From contig PHAG01000002.1 in NCBI GenBank assembly GCA_002841625.1, forward strand, positions 62,001-126,000: 64,000 bases of DNA, read 5' to 3'. Each line of letters begins with the position of its first letter. Positions within the stretch are counted from its first letter, which is position 1. The position numbers and the translations under genes were made by a program. Of the stretch, positions 47,174 to 53,275 are shown in pieces. Under the pieces are notes generated by a model that was given only the letters and a program-made list of their open reading frames with translations, searched no databases and was not told the origin of the DNA. The DNA is from Firmicutes bacterium HGW-Firmicutes-1. Lineage in GTDB: Bacteria; Bacillota; Clostridia; Lachnospirales; Vallitaleaceae.

Positions 47174-48712
47174 ATGTACAAAAAAGTAACCAGTGCTGCC
47201 TTAATGGGTATCAACGGGTATTTAGTTAGTGTGGAGGTTGATGTATCAGATGGCTTTCCAAGATTCGATCTTGTTGGATTGCCAGATAGTGCTGTCAAGG
47301 AAGCAATTGAGAGGGTGAGAACTTCAATAAAAAATTCTTCACTTACGTTTCCTTACAAAAGAATCACAGTCAATCTAGCACCAGCTGATATTAGAAAGGA
47401 AGGACCATCCTACGATTTACCAATCGCAGTTGGAATATTAGCCTGTATGGAGGTTGTAAATGAAGAAGCCTTGTTAAAAACACTAATACTAGGAGAGTTA
47501 TCCTTAAATGGTGATGTTAGGAGAGTAACAGGCATATTGCCTATGATTTATGCAGCATTTCAAGCAGGCTTTAAACATTGCATTGTACCTGTGGATAACG
47601 CAGAAGAAGCTGCAGTTGTAGAAGGAATAGATATCATAGGAGTAAACAGACTTGAAGAGGTTATCAAATACTTGAATATGGAGCTTGTAATAGCTCCAAG
47701 GCAAATAAACGTAAAGGAATTATTTGAATGGGAAAGGCCTTTTTATGACGAGGCTGACTTTACTGATATCAAAGGTCAAGAAAACGTAAGAAGGGCACTG
47801 GAAATTGCTGCTGCAGGCATGCACAATGTAATCATGATTGGTCCTCCTGGCTCAGGAAAGACCATGATGGCAAAAAGAGTGCCAAGTATCTTGCCGGATT
47901 TAACTTTTGAGGAAAGTATTGAAATTACAAAAGTGTATAGTGTAGCTGGTTTAATGAAAAAGAACCAGTCCTTAGTAACGAGAAGACCTTTTAGGTCACC
48001 ACATCATATCATATCAAATTCGGCACTTACGGGGGGAGGCAGGATACCTCATCCTGGAGAAATTAGTCTTGCTCATAATGGTGTTCTTTTCCTAGATGAA
48101 TTACCAGAATTTCAAAAAAGTGTATTAGAAGTTTTGCGGCAGCCGCTGGAGGAAGGAGAGGTAACGATATCTCGTGTACATGCTACGCTTACGTATCCTG
48201 CCAATTTCATGCTAATTTGTTCTATGAATCCTTGTCCTTGTGGATTCTACCCAGATCATGATAAGTGTAGTTGTACGCCTCCACAAATCAAGCGATATTT
48301 AAATAAAGTATCGGGGCCACTTCTTGACAGAATAGATCTTCATGTTGAGGCCTCTAAATTGGACCTAAAAGACTTAAATATAGCATTTATGCAGGAGTCT
48401 TCAAAAGCCATAAGAGAACGCGTTAAAAGCGCACACAGCATTCAAAAAGAGCGATTGAAAAATAGCCCATCATATTTTAATTCGAGTCTTTCAGTAGCGC
48501 AGATAAATGAATACTGCTTTGTAGAGAAACCAGCAGAGGAGTTATTGAAGGAAGCCTTCTTAAAATTAGGATTGAGCGCAAGAGCATATCACAGAATACT
48601 AAAGGTATCTAGAACGATTGCTGATCTCAATTCTTCTGAAACAATAAATGAGAAGCATATAGCGGAAGCAATTCAATATAGAACGTTAGATAGAAAGTAT
48701 TGGTCTCATTAA
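47174..48712 (+). CDS. comM: YifB/ComM family Mg chelatase-like AAA ATPase
   Basis: A 512-residue protein with an N-terminal Lon-protease-like S5 domain (about 1-165, AALMGINGYLVSVEVDVSDG), an AAA+ ATPase core with Walker A GPPGSGKTMM (about 220-229), and the C-terminal Mg_chelatase helical domain, including the zinc-type MNPCPCGFYPDHDKCSCTP (C x 4) between. ComM is a hexameric helicase for branch migration in transformation. AGGGGGAAATTTAATT precedes the ATG. It is followed after 50 nt by dprA, a functional companion in DNA processing. Confidence 0.95.
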   Translation: MYKKVTSAALMGINGYLVSVEVDVSDGFPRFDLVGLPDSAVKEAIERVRTSIKNSSLTFPYKRITVNLAPADIRKEGPSYDLPIAVGILACMEVVNEEALLKTLILGELSLNGDVRRVTGILPMIYAAFQAGFKHCIVPVDNAEEAAVVEGIDIIGVNRLEEVIKYLNMELVIAPRQINVKELFEWERPFYDEADFTDIKGQENVRRALEIAAAGMHNVIMIGPPGSGKTMMAKRVPSILPDLTFEESIEITKVYSVAGLMKKNQSLVTRRPFRSPHHIISNSALTGGGRIPHPGEISLAHNGVLFLDELPEFQKSVLEVLRQPLEEGEVTISRVHATLTYPANFMLICSMNPCPCGFYPDHDKCSCTPPQIKRYLNKVSGPLLDRIDLHVEASKLDLKDLNIAFMQESSKAIRERVKSAHSIQKERLKNSPSYFNSSLSVAQINEYCFVEKPAEELLKEAFLKLGLSARAYHRILKVSRTIADLNSSETINEKHIAEAIQYRTLDRKYWSH

Positions 48713-48762: not shown

Positions 48763-49863
48763 ATGAATGAAGAACTATATTGGTTATGGTTATCTAATAT
48801 TAGTGGAATAGGTAGGAAAAAGAAAGATACACTCATAGAATGTTTTAAATCACCTCAAGGAGTATTTTTAGCAACTGATCAAGATATTAAGGAAATATGT
48901 GAAAGCTTTTCTTTTTTTAGAAAGAATGATTTAACAAACTTGTTAGCTTCAAGAAATATTGAAAGAGTTGAAGCTTTTGAAAAGAAATTAATTGCTGCAG
49001 GTATTCGGTTTTATTCTATAAATCATAAATTATATCCTAAACAATTAAAAAACATTTATGACCCACCATTTGTGATTTACACCAAAGGAAATTTACTAGA
49101 AGAAGCACAAATAAAAATAGCAATTGTTGGAGCAAGAAAATGCTCTACTTACGGGAAAAAAGTGGCAGAATATTTAGCTAAAAGGTTAGCAGAAAATAAC
49201 ATAGCCATTATAAGTGGTTTGGCAAGAGGTATAGATGCAGCAGCGCACAAGGGTGCACTTCTAGGAAGTGGCAAGACAGTCGCGGTACTTGGCTGTGGGG
49301 TAAATATTTGTTATCCAGAAGAGAACTATCAATTGATGAAGCAAATAATTGATACTGGATGTGTGTTGTCAGAAACTCCGGTAAATACACCTCCAATAGC
49401 AGGTAATTTTCCATTGAGAAATAGGATCATTAGTGGACTATGTGATGGAGTTGTAATTGTAGAGGCTGCTGCTAAAAGCGGTTCATTAATCACAGCAGAT
49501 TGTGCTTTAGAACAAGGCAAGGATGTATTCGCTATACCAGGTAAAATATTTGATCCTTTGAGTGAAGGCACCAATAGGTTGATTAAAATGGGAGCAAAGC
49601 CTGTATCGGATATAGAGGATATTTTAGAGGAATACATAGAATTGGCAGTAAAAACAAAAGAAAACACGACGGATATTACAAACACCCTCAATGAGGAGGA
49701 AAAGATGATTTGCTCCTGTATTAAATTTGAACCTGTACATCTAGAAACAATCATTAGACAACTTCCTATGGGGATTGATGCTATTCATTTTTTGTTGATT
49801 AAATTAGAAATGAAAGGAGTTATTGAACAATTACCTAATAAATACTTTGTGAAAAGTGTGTAA
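48763..49863 (+). CDS. dprA: DNA-processing protein DprA
   Basis: A 366-residue DprA that loads RecA on incoming single-stranded DNA. A short N-terminal helical domain (1-75), the Rossmann-like core with VGARKCSTYGKKVAEYLAKR (about 124-143), ISGLARGIDAAAHKGAL, GCGVNICYPEENYQL and GNFPLRNRIISGL, and a C-terminal winged-helix DML1-like domain (about 300-366). AAAGGAG precedes the ATG. A decayed partial copy of the same gene follows directly, so a tandem duplication occurred here. Confidence 0.96.
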   Translation: MNEELYWLWLSNISGIGRKKKDTLIECFKSPQGVFLATDQDIKEICESFSFFRKNDLTNLLASRNIERVEAFEKKLIAAGIRFYSINHKLYPKQLKNIYDPPFVIYTKGNLLEEAQIKIAIVGARKCSTYGKKVAEYLAKRLAENNIAIISGLARGIDAAAHKGALLGSGKTVAVLGCGVNICYPEENYQLMKQIIDTGCVLSETPVNTPPIAGNFPLRNRIISGLCDGVVIVEAAAKSGSLITADCALEQGKDVFAIPGKIFDPLSEGTNRLIKMGAKPVSDIEDILEEYIELAVKTKENTTDITNTLNEEEKMICSCIKFEPVHLETIIRQLPMGIDAIHFLLIKLEMKGVIEQLPNKYFVKSV

Positions 49864-49940
49864 GATTGTTTTGTATTTAATGAATAACCTCGGGTCTTGA
49901 GGATATGGCATTGTAAGCGTAAGCGGATGCTATTTTAAGG

Positions 49941-50313
49941 GAAGAAAGTGGCAGAATATTTAGCTAAAGAATTAGCAGAGAATAACAATGTTCTTATTAG
50001 TGAAGTGGAAAGTAAGCAAGAACAGATTCTTTATAATACGTACTTAAATCAACACAAAACATAGAAGCTACATTAGAGGAAATACATAGAGTATACGGAA
50101 AAAACAGTTGAAAATAAAACTGTTTTTGAAAAAACACTTGAAAAAGGGGAAAAAATGGTATATTCTTGTATCAGCTTTGAATCGATACATTTGGACACAC
50201 TATTTAGAAGGATATCAATGAATAGAGATGAGGTTCAATTATAGTGAATAAAGTTAGAACTTAAAGGCATGATTGAACAATTGCCGAATAAGTATTTTAT
50301 AAAAAAGGTTTAA
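49941..50313 (+). pseudogene. Degenerate partial second copy of dprA
   Basis: 49946-50001 repeats the Rossmann segment of dprA (KVAEYLAKELAENN, compare KVAEYLAKRLAENN). 50136-50313 repeats its winged-helix end: EKGEKMVYSCISFESIHLDT matches the EEEKMICSCIKFEPVHLET of dprA, and after in-frame TAG and TGA codons (50242-50247) IKLELKGMIEQLPNKYFIKK matches IKLEMKGVIEQLPNKYFVKS. About 200 codons between the two parts are deleted and further stops occur (for example TAG at 50062). No intact frame remains. It separates dprA from topA, whose SD overlaps its end. Confidence 0.92.
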
Positions 50314-50325
50314 TGGAGGATAGCA

Positions 50326-52404
50326 ATGGCAAAAAACTTAGTGATCGTAGAATCTCCAGCAAAGGCAAAAACAATAAAGAAATTTTTAGGTGCCAATTAT
50401 AAAATCGAAGCCTCCATGGGACATGTAAGAGATTTACCAAAAAGTCAAATGGGTATTGATATTGAAAATGACTTCGATCCAAAATACATAACCATTCGTG
50501 GAAAAGGAGAATTACTTGCAACCCTAAGAAAGGAAGTAAAAAAAGCAAGTAAGGTTTATCTCGCAACTGACCCTGACCGTGAAGGTGAAGCAATCTCTTG
50601 GCATTTAATGCATGCATTGAATTTAGAAGGTAAAACAACTTATAGAATTACCTTTAATGAGATTACAAAAAGTGCGATACAAAACTCAATAAAAAATGCA
50701 AGAGAAATAGATATGGATTTGGTTGATGCACAGCAAGCAAGAAGAATACTTGATAGAATCGTAGGCTATAAAATTAGCCCATTGCTTTGGAAAAAAGTTA
50801 AAAAGGGGTTAAGCGCCGGGAGGGTACAATCAGTAGCCTTAAAGATTATTTGTGATAGAGAAGAAGAAATCAATGCATTTATTCCTGTTGAGTATTGGAC
50901 ATTGGATGCTATTTTAAAAGATAAAACTTCAAAAGATGAATTTAAAGCACATTTTTATGGTATTGGTGATAAAAAGAAAGCATTATCCTCTATCGAAGAA
51001 GTTCAAGAAATAGAAAAAGCGATTAAGGGTAAGAATTGTACAATTTCTGATATTAAGGAAAAGGAAAGGATTAGAAAACCGTTACCTCCTTTTATCACAA
51101 GTACCATGCAACAAGAAGGATCAAAAAAACTTAATTTTTCTACTTCAAAGACAATGAGAATTGCACAGCAATTATATGAAGGGATAGAAATTAAAGACAA
51201 AGGAACGATTGGATTAATTACGTACTTGAGAACAGATTCAACAAGAATTGCTGATGAAGCACATGAATCAGCCATTGGTTATATAAGTGATAAATATGGT
51301 AGTGATATGGCTAATCCGATCAATACTGCTACTGATAAGAAAAGAAAAGTACAAGATGCCCATGAAGCTATACGCCCAACTTATGTTGAACTTGAACCTG
51401 AACAAATAAAGGATTCTTTATCTAAGGAACAATTCAAGCTATATAAATTAATTTGGTGTAGATATGTTGCAAGTCGTATGATGCCAGCTAAATACAATGT
51501 CAAATCTGTTAAGGTTGATATTGATATATATAGATTTACCGCAGCACTTTCTGTTTTAACTTTTGATGGCTTTCTAAAAGTATACAAAATTGACGATCAG
51601 GAAGAAGGACAAAATGAAGGCGATGATGAGGACGATCAAAAAATAACAAATATTAATATTGATTCCAGCTTAAAGCTTGTTGAAATAGATGATAAACAAC
51701 ACTTTACCCAACCTCCAGCTAGGTTCACAGAGGCATCTTTGGTAAAAACCTTAGAAGAAAACGGTGTGGGACGACCAAGTACTTATGCACCAACAATCAC
51801 TACCATTCTTGCTAGGAATTATATTTCTAAAGAAGCTAAACAACTGTTTCCTACCGAACTTGGTGAAATAGTAAGTGAAATACTCGTAGAGTATTTTAGC
51901 GAAATTGTTGATGTAGGTTTTACCGCTTCATTAGAAGAGCAATTAGATCATGTTGAAGAAGGTGACATGGAATGGAAAAATGTGATAAGAAAGTTCTATC
52001 CTCATTTTAGCGAAACAGTAGATAAAGCAGAGGTAGAAATTGGGAAGATAGAAATAAAAGATGAGGTATCAGACGTTCTTTGTGACAAGTGTGGAAGGAA
52101 TATGGTAATTAAGATCGGAAAATTTGGTAAATTTCTAGCTTGTCCTGGATTTCCGGAATGTAGAAATGCAAAGCCAATTTTTGAAAAAATAGATGATGTT
52201 CTTTGCCCTAATTGTGGCGCAGATATTTTAGTGAAAAAGACGAAGAAAGGACGTAGGTATTATGGATGTGAGAGCGGAGATTTTATGACGTGGAATAAGC
52301 CTACATCAGAAAAATGTAATATTTGTGGATCAATCATGATTGAAAAAGGTAAAAATTTAATGTGTATTAATGAAGATTGTAAAAACGTAGTGTCGAAAGT
52401 TTAA
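50326..52404 (+). CDS. topA: DNA topoisomerase I (type IA)
   Basis: A 692-residue omega protein relaxing negative supercoils. Toprim domain at the start (LVIVESPAKAKTIKKFLG, DPDREGEAISWHL), catalytic tyrosine Y300 in GLITYLRTDSTRI, HEAIRPTYVELEPEQI, EASLVKTLEENGVGRPSTYA, and three C-terminal four-cysteine zinc ribbons (about 582-690; CDKCGRNM, CPNCGADI, CNICGSIM). An acidic insertion (EEGQNEGDDEDDQK, about 425-440) interrupts the core. GGAGG precedes the ATG, overlapping the tail of the dprA relic. codY follows, as in Bacillus, but trmFO, xerC and hslVU are absent in between. Confidence 0.98.
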   Translation: MAKNLVIVESPAKAKTIKKFLGANYKIEASMGHVRDLPKSQMGIDIENDFDPKYITIRGKGELLATLRKEVKKASKVYLATDPDREGEAISWHLMHALNLEGKTTYRITFNEITKSAIQNSIKNAREIDMDLVDAQQARRILDRIVGYKISPLLWKKVKKGLSAGRVQSVALKIICDREEEINAFIPVEYWTLDAILKDKTSKDEFKAHFYGIGDKKKALSSIEEVQEIEKAIKGKNCTISDIKEKERIRKPLPPFITSTMQQEGSKKLNFSTSKTMRIAQQLYEGIEIKDKGTIGLITYLRTDSTRIADEAHESAIGYISDKYGSDMANPINTATDKKRKVQDAHEAIRPTYVELEPEQIKDSLSKEQFKLYKLIWCRYVASRMMPAKYNVKSVKVDIDIYRFTAALSVLTFDGFLKVYKIDDQEEGQNEGDDEDDQKITNINIDSSLKLVEIDDKQHFTQPPARFTEASLVKTLEENGVGRPSTYAPTITTILARNYISKEAKQLFPTELGEIVSEILVEYFSEIVDVGFTASLEEQLDHVEEGDMEWKNVIRKFYPHFSETVDKAEVEIGKIEIKDEVSDVLCDKCGRNMVIKIGKFGKFLACPGFPECRNAKPIFEKIDDVLCPNCGADILVKKTKKGRRYYGCESGDFMTWNKPTSEKCNICGSIMIEKGKNLMCINEDCKNVVSKV

Positions 52405-52432
52405 GGAAAGTGTTAGAATTTCGAAAAACAGC

Positions 52433-52461
52433 TTGTTATCTGAAAAAATATGTACTATAAT
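52433..52461 (+). promoter_or_regulatory. Promoter for codY
   Basis: TTGTTA (52433-52438), a 17-bp spacer and TATAAT (52456-52461), 47 nt before the GTG start. Confidence 0.75.
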
Positions 52462-52507
52462 GAAATTGTATTGTAAGTCAATGGTAATGTAGGAGGGATG
52501 CATCAAA

Positions 52508-53275
52508 GTGAGCGTTCAATTATTAGATCGGACAAGGAAAATTAACAGGTTATTACAAAAAACTGGAACGCAGAGAGTGATTTTCACGGATATTTGTGAG
52601 GTTATGAGCGAAATATTGAATTCAAATGTACTTGTTCTTAGTAAAAAGGGTAAATTACTAGCTATACATGAAATAAAGGGATTTATTCAAGTACGTGAGT
52701 TACTTACTGATAACATGGGCACATTTATTGACGATAAGCTCAGTGACAGGATCTTAAACATTCTTTCCACCAAAGAAAATATCAATTTGGAAACATTGGG
52801 ATTTACGAATGAGGTTACAACCAATAAAATTGTGGGCATGGTTGTACCAATTGACATCGCAGGAGAAAGATTAGGAACATTATTCTTATATAGACAAACA
52901 AAAAACTATCATATAGAAGACATTATTCTTGGGGAATATGGTGCTACGGTAGTTGGGCTTGAAATTATGCGATCTATAAATGATGAAAATTCTGAAGAAA
53001 CAAGGAAAACAGCCATTGTGAAATCTGCAATTGGTACACTATCCTTTTCAGAACAAGAAGCTATTAAGCATATATTTAATGAGCTTACAGGTAAAGAAGG
53101 AATTTTAGTTGCAAGCAAGATTGCAGATAAGGTAGGTATTACAAGATCTGTAATTGTGAATGCTCTACGTAAATTTGAAAGTGCAGGGGTTATTGAATCC
53201 AGATCGTTAGGAATGAAAGGTACATATATAAAAATTCTTAACGAAGTATTACTGGAAGAATTGGATAAAATTTGA
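52508..53275 (+). CDS. codY: GTP-sensing global transcriptional repressor CodY
   Basis: A 255-residue CodY: N-terminal GAF domain for branched-chain amino acids (LLDRTRKINRLLQKTG, FTDICEVMSEILNSNVLVLS) and C-terminal winged HTH (about 200-240, ASKIADKVGITRSVIVNALR, KFESAGVIESRSLGMKGTYI). It represses stationary-phase, nitrogen and motility genes when GTP and BCAA are high. Start GTG 52508 with AGGAGGG 11 nt before. The flagellar operon lies just downstream, and CodY is a known repressor of it in Bacillus. Confidence 0.98.
   Translation: MSVQLLDRTRKINRLLQKTGTQRVIFTDICEVMSEILNSNVLVLSKKGKLLAIHEIKGFIQVRELLTDNMGTFIDDKLSDRILNILSTKENINLETLGFTNEVTTNKIVGMVVPIDIAGERLGTLFLYRQTKNYHIEDIILGEYGATVVGLEIMRSINDENSEETRKTAIVKSAIGTLSFSEQEAIKHIFNELTGKEGILVASKIADKVGITRSVIVNALRKFESAGVIESRSLGMKGTYIKILNEVLLEELDKI

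Follow-up and report, generated by a model that had tools for sequence, protein, structure and literature searches.

The region considered here lies within a 64,000-nucleotide stretch of DNA from Firmicutes bacterium HGW-Firmicutes-1, referred to throughout as the window, and encompasses a run of genes on the plus strand. The first of these (47174..48712), a 512-amino-acid open frame that is 91% identical over 335 amino acids to its counterpart in a congeneric genome, is taken here to be a comM/yifB-like gene. It is followed by an intact dprA (48763..49863), which specifies a protein of 366 amino acids with a PF02481 match of 6.5e-80, and then by a 692-amino-acid open frame (50326..52404), 88% identical to that of the congener, which is presumably topA, the gene for DNA topoisomerase I. 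Between dprA and topA is found a second, decayed copy of dprA, which we call the relic. The genus is represented by the window genome and a single congener, the MAG HGW-Firmicutes-7 (G001). The intact dprA and the relic of the window are designated d0 and r0, and those of the congener d1 and r1.

Comparison of positions 49864-50325 with the intact gene (48763-49863) by blastn returns two pieces of dprA, which are collinear, on the plus strand, and contained within 49935-50313. The first, at 49935-49987, corresponds to dprA nucleotides 387-439 (89% identity over 53 nt, E 5e-16), and a repeat search lengthens it to 49935..50012, or dprA nucleotides 387-464, with 79% identity over 78 nt; it represents the start of the Rossmann domain. 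The second, at 50061..50313, corresponds to nucleotides 850-1101 (67% identity over 253 nt, E 1e-17) and covers the winged-helix end as far as the ancestral stop adjoining topA. Around 385-410 nt of dprA are absent between the two pieces, which are separated by a stretch of about 48 nt (50013-50060). The best local score between the relic and dprA is 91, in comparison with a maximum of 36 among 300 dinucleotide shuffles. The similarity is thus beyond chance and found in more than one domain, and the relic is a decayed dprA copy. The reading frame of the first piece is ended by a TAG at 50062-50064, and the winged-helix piece carries one additional base near 50079 and two adjacent in-frame stops, TAG TGA, at 50242..50247. 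With stops in all three frames, and with no counterpart to the 5' part of dprA, the relic cannot encode the DprA protein. The initial annotation, which had described ordered dprA fragments with stops and a large deletion following the intact gene, is therefore borne out; the alternative that it raised, a likeness to dprA in the winged-helix domain only, fails, since the match extends beyond that domain. Besides dprA itself, the genome contains no further match to the relic at E <= 0.001. At gathering thresholds Rfam recognises no RNA family at the relic, and the sole match in the window is a TPP riboswitch elsewhere (RF00059, 4167-4263, plus strand, 66.6 bits). The junction that follows the relic (50314..50325, plus strand) consists of the relic stop, a GGAGG ribosome site and the ATGGC of the topA start, and matches the dprA-topA junction of genus g3, from which it follows that the relic occupies the ancestral place of dprA.

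The congener also harbors a dprA relic at the equivalent place between dprA and topA, and is the sole other case, as no relic is present at any other dprA-topA junction examined. Elsewhere in the family topA starts 1-49 nt past the dprA stop in 15 of 15 other loci, and in one more locus it starts 16 nt past it, and two loci of genus g7 have gaps of 202 and 403 nt; the junction could not be judged in two family genomes, one with dprA at a contig end (G015) and one with no match (G019). Nor do dprA remnants occur in the long dprA-topA gaps (at least 57 nt) of 33 loci from the order, save for a 15-nt blastn match in L083. The relic of the congener opens with 32 nt that are 87.5% identical (E 1.7e-7) to the 3' end of the comM-like gene, indicating that the duplicated stretch extended into that gene; no comM-like piece was found in the relic of the window. 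The same part of the congener locus (about 815-1000 of L044) includes a palindromic hairpin and a run of T's located after the intact dprA, between d1 and r1, although the scan lists the hairpin on the minus strand only and the plus-strand T run is our own reading.

The relationships between the four copies are not those of recent tandem duplicates, in which the copies of one genome would be closest. Across the tail of the gene the identities are 65% for d0-d1, 67% for r0-d0, 64% for r1-d0, 78% for r0-d1, 87% for r1-d1 and 83% for r0-r1 (by blastn, 80%, 88% and 84% for the last three). The relic of the window is thus only 67% identical to its own dprA but 78-80% identical to that of the congener. 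The duplication is accordingly not recent, in agreement with the initial annotation, whose description of the relic as a copy of dprA also stands; however, a simple copying of the adjacent gene does not account for the relic, in view of its greater likeness to the dprA and the relic (83-84%) of the congener. Informative tail sites group d1 with r1 in 12 cases, r0 with r1 in six and r0 with d1 in one. Most of the sites joining the two relics fall in the opening part of the tail or at its extreme end, and most of those joining d1 and r1 in its middle, a split that may point to gene conversion in the congener. The odd one out is d0, which implies that the relic was not copied from its neighbour after the species split; d0 may be a paralogue of greater age or an allele acquired by transfer, the latter in keeping with the second option of the initial annotation.

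A common pseudogene origin of the two relics may be indicated by a single base that is missing from each at ATAGC-ATTG and by the similarity of the large deletion at its left end, although the deletion ends are not identical. Their differences are distributed over all three codon positions (12, 12 and 19 of 83-85 each), and 32 of about 246 tail sites have changed on the branch of the window relic. Identity between the two species at 4-fold sites is 47% for topA, 46% for the comM-like gene, 36% for dprA and 59% for a codY-like gene. A sequence that had been dead since the split would be expected to show comparable values, but the identity of the relics is 83-84%. This likeness may in part stem from recent death or from conversion, but it was sufficiently unexpected to lead to a search for a conserved element.

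Such an element is found in the winged-helix piece at 50138..50166 on the plus strand. It reads TTGAAA-N17-TATTCT, is located 159 nt before topA, and is identical in the relic of the congener. Hexamers at -35 and -10 that are 17 nt apart constitute the sigma-A promoter layout, and the element, as scored by a promoter scan, matches nine of the 12 hexamer positions with a spacing inside the 16-18 nt range, although chance yields equally many sites per region. A blind scan of the region gave no excess of sites (nine against 8.9 expected, both strands), and in the interval from dprA to the start of topA it revealed no second promoter-like site on the plus strand. Differences between r0 and r1 amount to 7 of 69 positions inside the element and 36 of 183 outside it, a contrast that is not significant for an independently defined window (Fisher 0.09; 0.08 for the core). 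Conservation between two relics is on its own suggestive, and we do not rest the case upon it; the remainder of the relic likewise shows more conservation than would be expected of long-dead sequence, so that its death may simply be recent.

More is learned from the intact dprA genes of relatives, where the homologous codons of the winged-helix domain read TTGnnn-N17-TAnnnT. In six genomes of genus g3, the DNA of dprA codons 303-325 is 91-100% identical in all 15 pairs, with third positions 87-100% identical. In the four bins of the gene core, by comparison, third-position identity is 40-77% for every pair except G003-G013, two close relatives with higher values throughout, which leaves 14 pairs in this range. 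For the order as a whole, 246 genomes were searched in one set, 235 of which had a match; 126 loci were parsed, and 121 were aligned after five (L053, L056, L059, L116 and L122) had been dropped before counting as fragments, second copies or a repeated place. These loci are the better matches rather than a random draw. Expected codon counts were taken from the codon use of the same locus, and the z-scores, like the other order-wide statistics, ignore shared descent. The leucine codon that supplies the TTG of the -35 hexamer is CTT in 95 of 111 loci, where 28.1 are expected (z 15.2, the highest of 104 columns). At the -10 hexamer, aspartate is encoded by GAT in all 60 of 60 loci (34.3 expected) and tyrosine by TAT in 106 of 112 (84.7 expected). 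The excess of CTT, GAT and TAT, uncorrected for shared descent, indicates that the hexamers are under selection at the DNA level in these relatives, as would be required of a sigma-A promoter. Among the 14 highest-scoring columns, nine belong to the stretch that runs from the -35 hexamer to just past the -10 hexamer, and five are elsewhere, including two serine columns (z 6.4 and 6.9).

Of the 121 loci, 89 carry the complete site, which occurs in 12 of the 19 families sampled, including loci with a G+C content of 57-59% (L026, L076 and L121). Its occurrence varies with the distance between dprA and topA: 71 of 79 loci have it where the gap is below 40 nt, 14 of 31 at 40-119 nt, four of nine at 120 nt or more, and neither of the two in which topA was not found. 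Eight of the 32 loci that lack the site thus have a gap below 40 nt. The difference between short and larger gaps (71/79 against 18/40) has a Fisher value of 2.5e-7 when shared descent is ignored, and the link is largely driven by family f18, in which the site is found in none of 18 loci. When a promoter was sought instead in the gaps (57-403 nt) of 19 element-less loci, the shuffle fraction exceeded 0.05 in all 19; good-looking sites were seen in L101 and L119, and ATGACA-18-AAGAAT is common to L081, L087 and L093, again at a shuffle fraction above 0.05. Outside the order, where the alignment is less sure, the site is found in three of 35 loci, 28 of which are labelled as the same class and seven of which are named contigs assigned outside the order by their titles. 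The three loci (L169, L170 and L171, families f65 and f72) have CTTGATT with TATAAT at 17 nt in the homologous dprA codons, and are possibly an independent or older case of an embedded promoter.

Within the family, the site is found in 16 of the 16 dprA copies that touch topA (a gap of no more than 49 nt) and in none of the four separated copies, although the latter represent two lineages rather than four, one consisting of d0 and d1 and the other of the two g7 copies, which lie 403 and 202 nt from topA. In the intact dprA of the window, codon alignment with relatives places the eroded promoter position at 49688..49716 (plus strand), where both hexamers have been lost and the sequence reads TCAATG-N17-TGCTCC, in contrast to the TTGnnn-N17-TAnnnT of topA-abutting relatives. 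The intact dprA of the congener retains TTGATA with TATTCA, one -10 base short of the rule.

We consider it likely, on the strength of these sequence comparisons, that the promoter of topA lay within dprA and that, once dprA had been duplicated, the copy on the side of topA decayed in its coding function and kept the promoter. In the ancestral state, which would still hold in much of the order, the topA promoter would sit in the 3' end of dprA, among the winged-helix codons and with a sigma-A type layout. In the genus of the window, either a tandem duplication of the dprA region or the insertion of another dprA allele would then have followed. The topA-touching copy, freed from making protein, would have lost its middle and gained stops, and its promoter piece would have been retained because topA still needed a promoter. 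The intact copy upstream, no longer adjacent to topA, would have lost the promoter and kept the protein. In the congener, the hairpin with its T run could also stop read-through from dprA. The relic is probably not inert, as it retains a predicted promoter that is under DNA-level constraint in intact dprA genes of much of the order and that the adjacent dprA has lost. From these comparisons we infer that the element functions as a promoter, that topA is transcribed from it, and that the relic has been preserved by selection for this role. For the wider generalisation, we are inclined to believe that a sigma-A topA promoter is carried in the winged-helix codons of dprA in most of the sampled families, and that in one genus a copy has been reduced to a promoter carrier.

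Other explanations of the element have to be set against this. The relic might be an ordinary decaying pseudogene, in which a dprA copy died recently in both lineages, the remnant is inert and the site survives by chance. The spread of r0-r1 differences over all codon positions is what decaying sequence would give, the key bases could persist by luck with 32 of about 246 tail sites changed, and the contrast between the element and the rest falls short of significance; however, this account leaves aside the synonymous constraint at exactly the element codons across much of the order, the retention of the site in both relics with its loss from both intact copies, and the 16/16 versus 0/4 contrast within the family, and we regard it as unlikely. 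Alternatively, the codons could be conserved for some other reason at the DNA or RNA level, such as regulator binding, mRNA structure or translation. The case for a promoter is one of sequence conservation, and some of the nine top-scoring columns at the element lie outside the hexamers, which speaks for such a reason. Against it, constraint is strongest at the TTG and TAnnnT positions, whose spacing of exactly 17 nt is the sigma-A layout, and no Rfam family is recognised there; we give this possibility little weight.

The origin of the second copy is a separate matter. A foreign allele may have replaced the native dprA next to the relic, which would then be the remnant of the native gene. This is compatible with the promoter explanation, as it bears only on the source of the second copy, and we treat it as a tentative proposal, somewhat less probable than its converse. 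It would account for the grouping of the relic with the dprA and relic of the congener (12, six and one informative sites) and for the d0 and d1 tails being only 56% identical in protein when the cores are 79% identical and topA 88%; in 14 pairs of genus g3, the corresponding values are 76-88% for cores and 73-91% for tails. However, d0 and d1 are about equidistant from the g3 outgroup (63-69% and 61-67% in the core), which does not indicate a foreign source, and the same pattern would be expected if an old tandem duplication had been followed by gene conversion in the congener. Recombination between the two species could also have carried the relic together with the start of topA and so explain the relic-relic likeness. 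This was suggested by topA codons 1-50, in which 41 of 49 same-residue codons are identical, above the bins that follow, although the last bin is equally high (32 of 38). The idea is weakened by a similar topA-start excess in pairs from other genera that have no relic (for example 44/49 and 46/49, though not in all 19 pairs), and was set aside as very improbable.

In some respects the proposed arrangement mirrors systems that are already familiar. Promoters located within upstream genes are a known kind, as with the heat-shock promoter of Escherichia coli rpoD within dnaG, and here too the start signal of a housekeeping gene would be embedded in the preceding coding sequence. In contrast to rpoD, the site in the window is made visible by synonymous constraint across much of an order, and in this genus the host copy is dead. 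In duplication-degeneration-complementation, or subfunctionalisation, two copies share out the ancestral roles, as the dprA copies appear to do; however, the roles divided here would be a protein and the promoter of the next gene, and one copy ends as a pseudogene. The relic resembles ordinary bacterial pseudogenes in its stops, frameshift and internal deletion, but unlike them it keeps a site on which constraint acts in functional dprA genes. The nearest precedent found, a distant case that speaks for the promoter explanation, is in Neisseria meningitidis, where dprA, smg and topA are described as co-transcribed, a promoter has been predicted midway along dprA, and TopA can still be detected in a dprA null mutant (PMC5817196). 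As in the window, dprA precedes topA in that cluster; however, the organism belongs to another phylum, smg lies between the two genes, the site is a program prediction elsewhere in dprA, and the available text shows neither a relic nor constraint across species (PMC5817196). As far as the accessible portions of open-licence papers extend, no report was found of a gene copy worn down to the promoter of its neighbour, and beyond the Neisseria meningitidis prediction no paper was found on a topA promoter inside dprA; the portion of PMC12448304 that was available makes no mention of a topA promoter.

If the promoter explanation is correct, the expression of topoisomerase I would be tied to the coding sequence of a DNA-uptake gene in much of a Clostridia order, and a silent codon constraint in dprA would be explained. 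The removal or recoding of dprA in such bacteria could then disturb topA. Some bacterial pseudogenes may persist as regulatory DNA, which would serve as a warning, and the genus of the window would provide a natural experiment in which the protein role of a gene has been separated from the regulation of its neighbour.

Two further observations concern topA itself. Its first 50 codons (50326-50475 in the window, and the same codons in other genera) show fewer silent changes than the rest of the gene in several genus pairs, hinting at a further DNA- or RNA-level constraint at the topA start. Finally, identity between the two species is 87-98% in 60-nt bins across 52282-52521, from the last part of topA into the region preceding the codY-like gene, as if a promoter of the next gene were located there.
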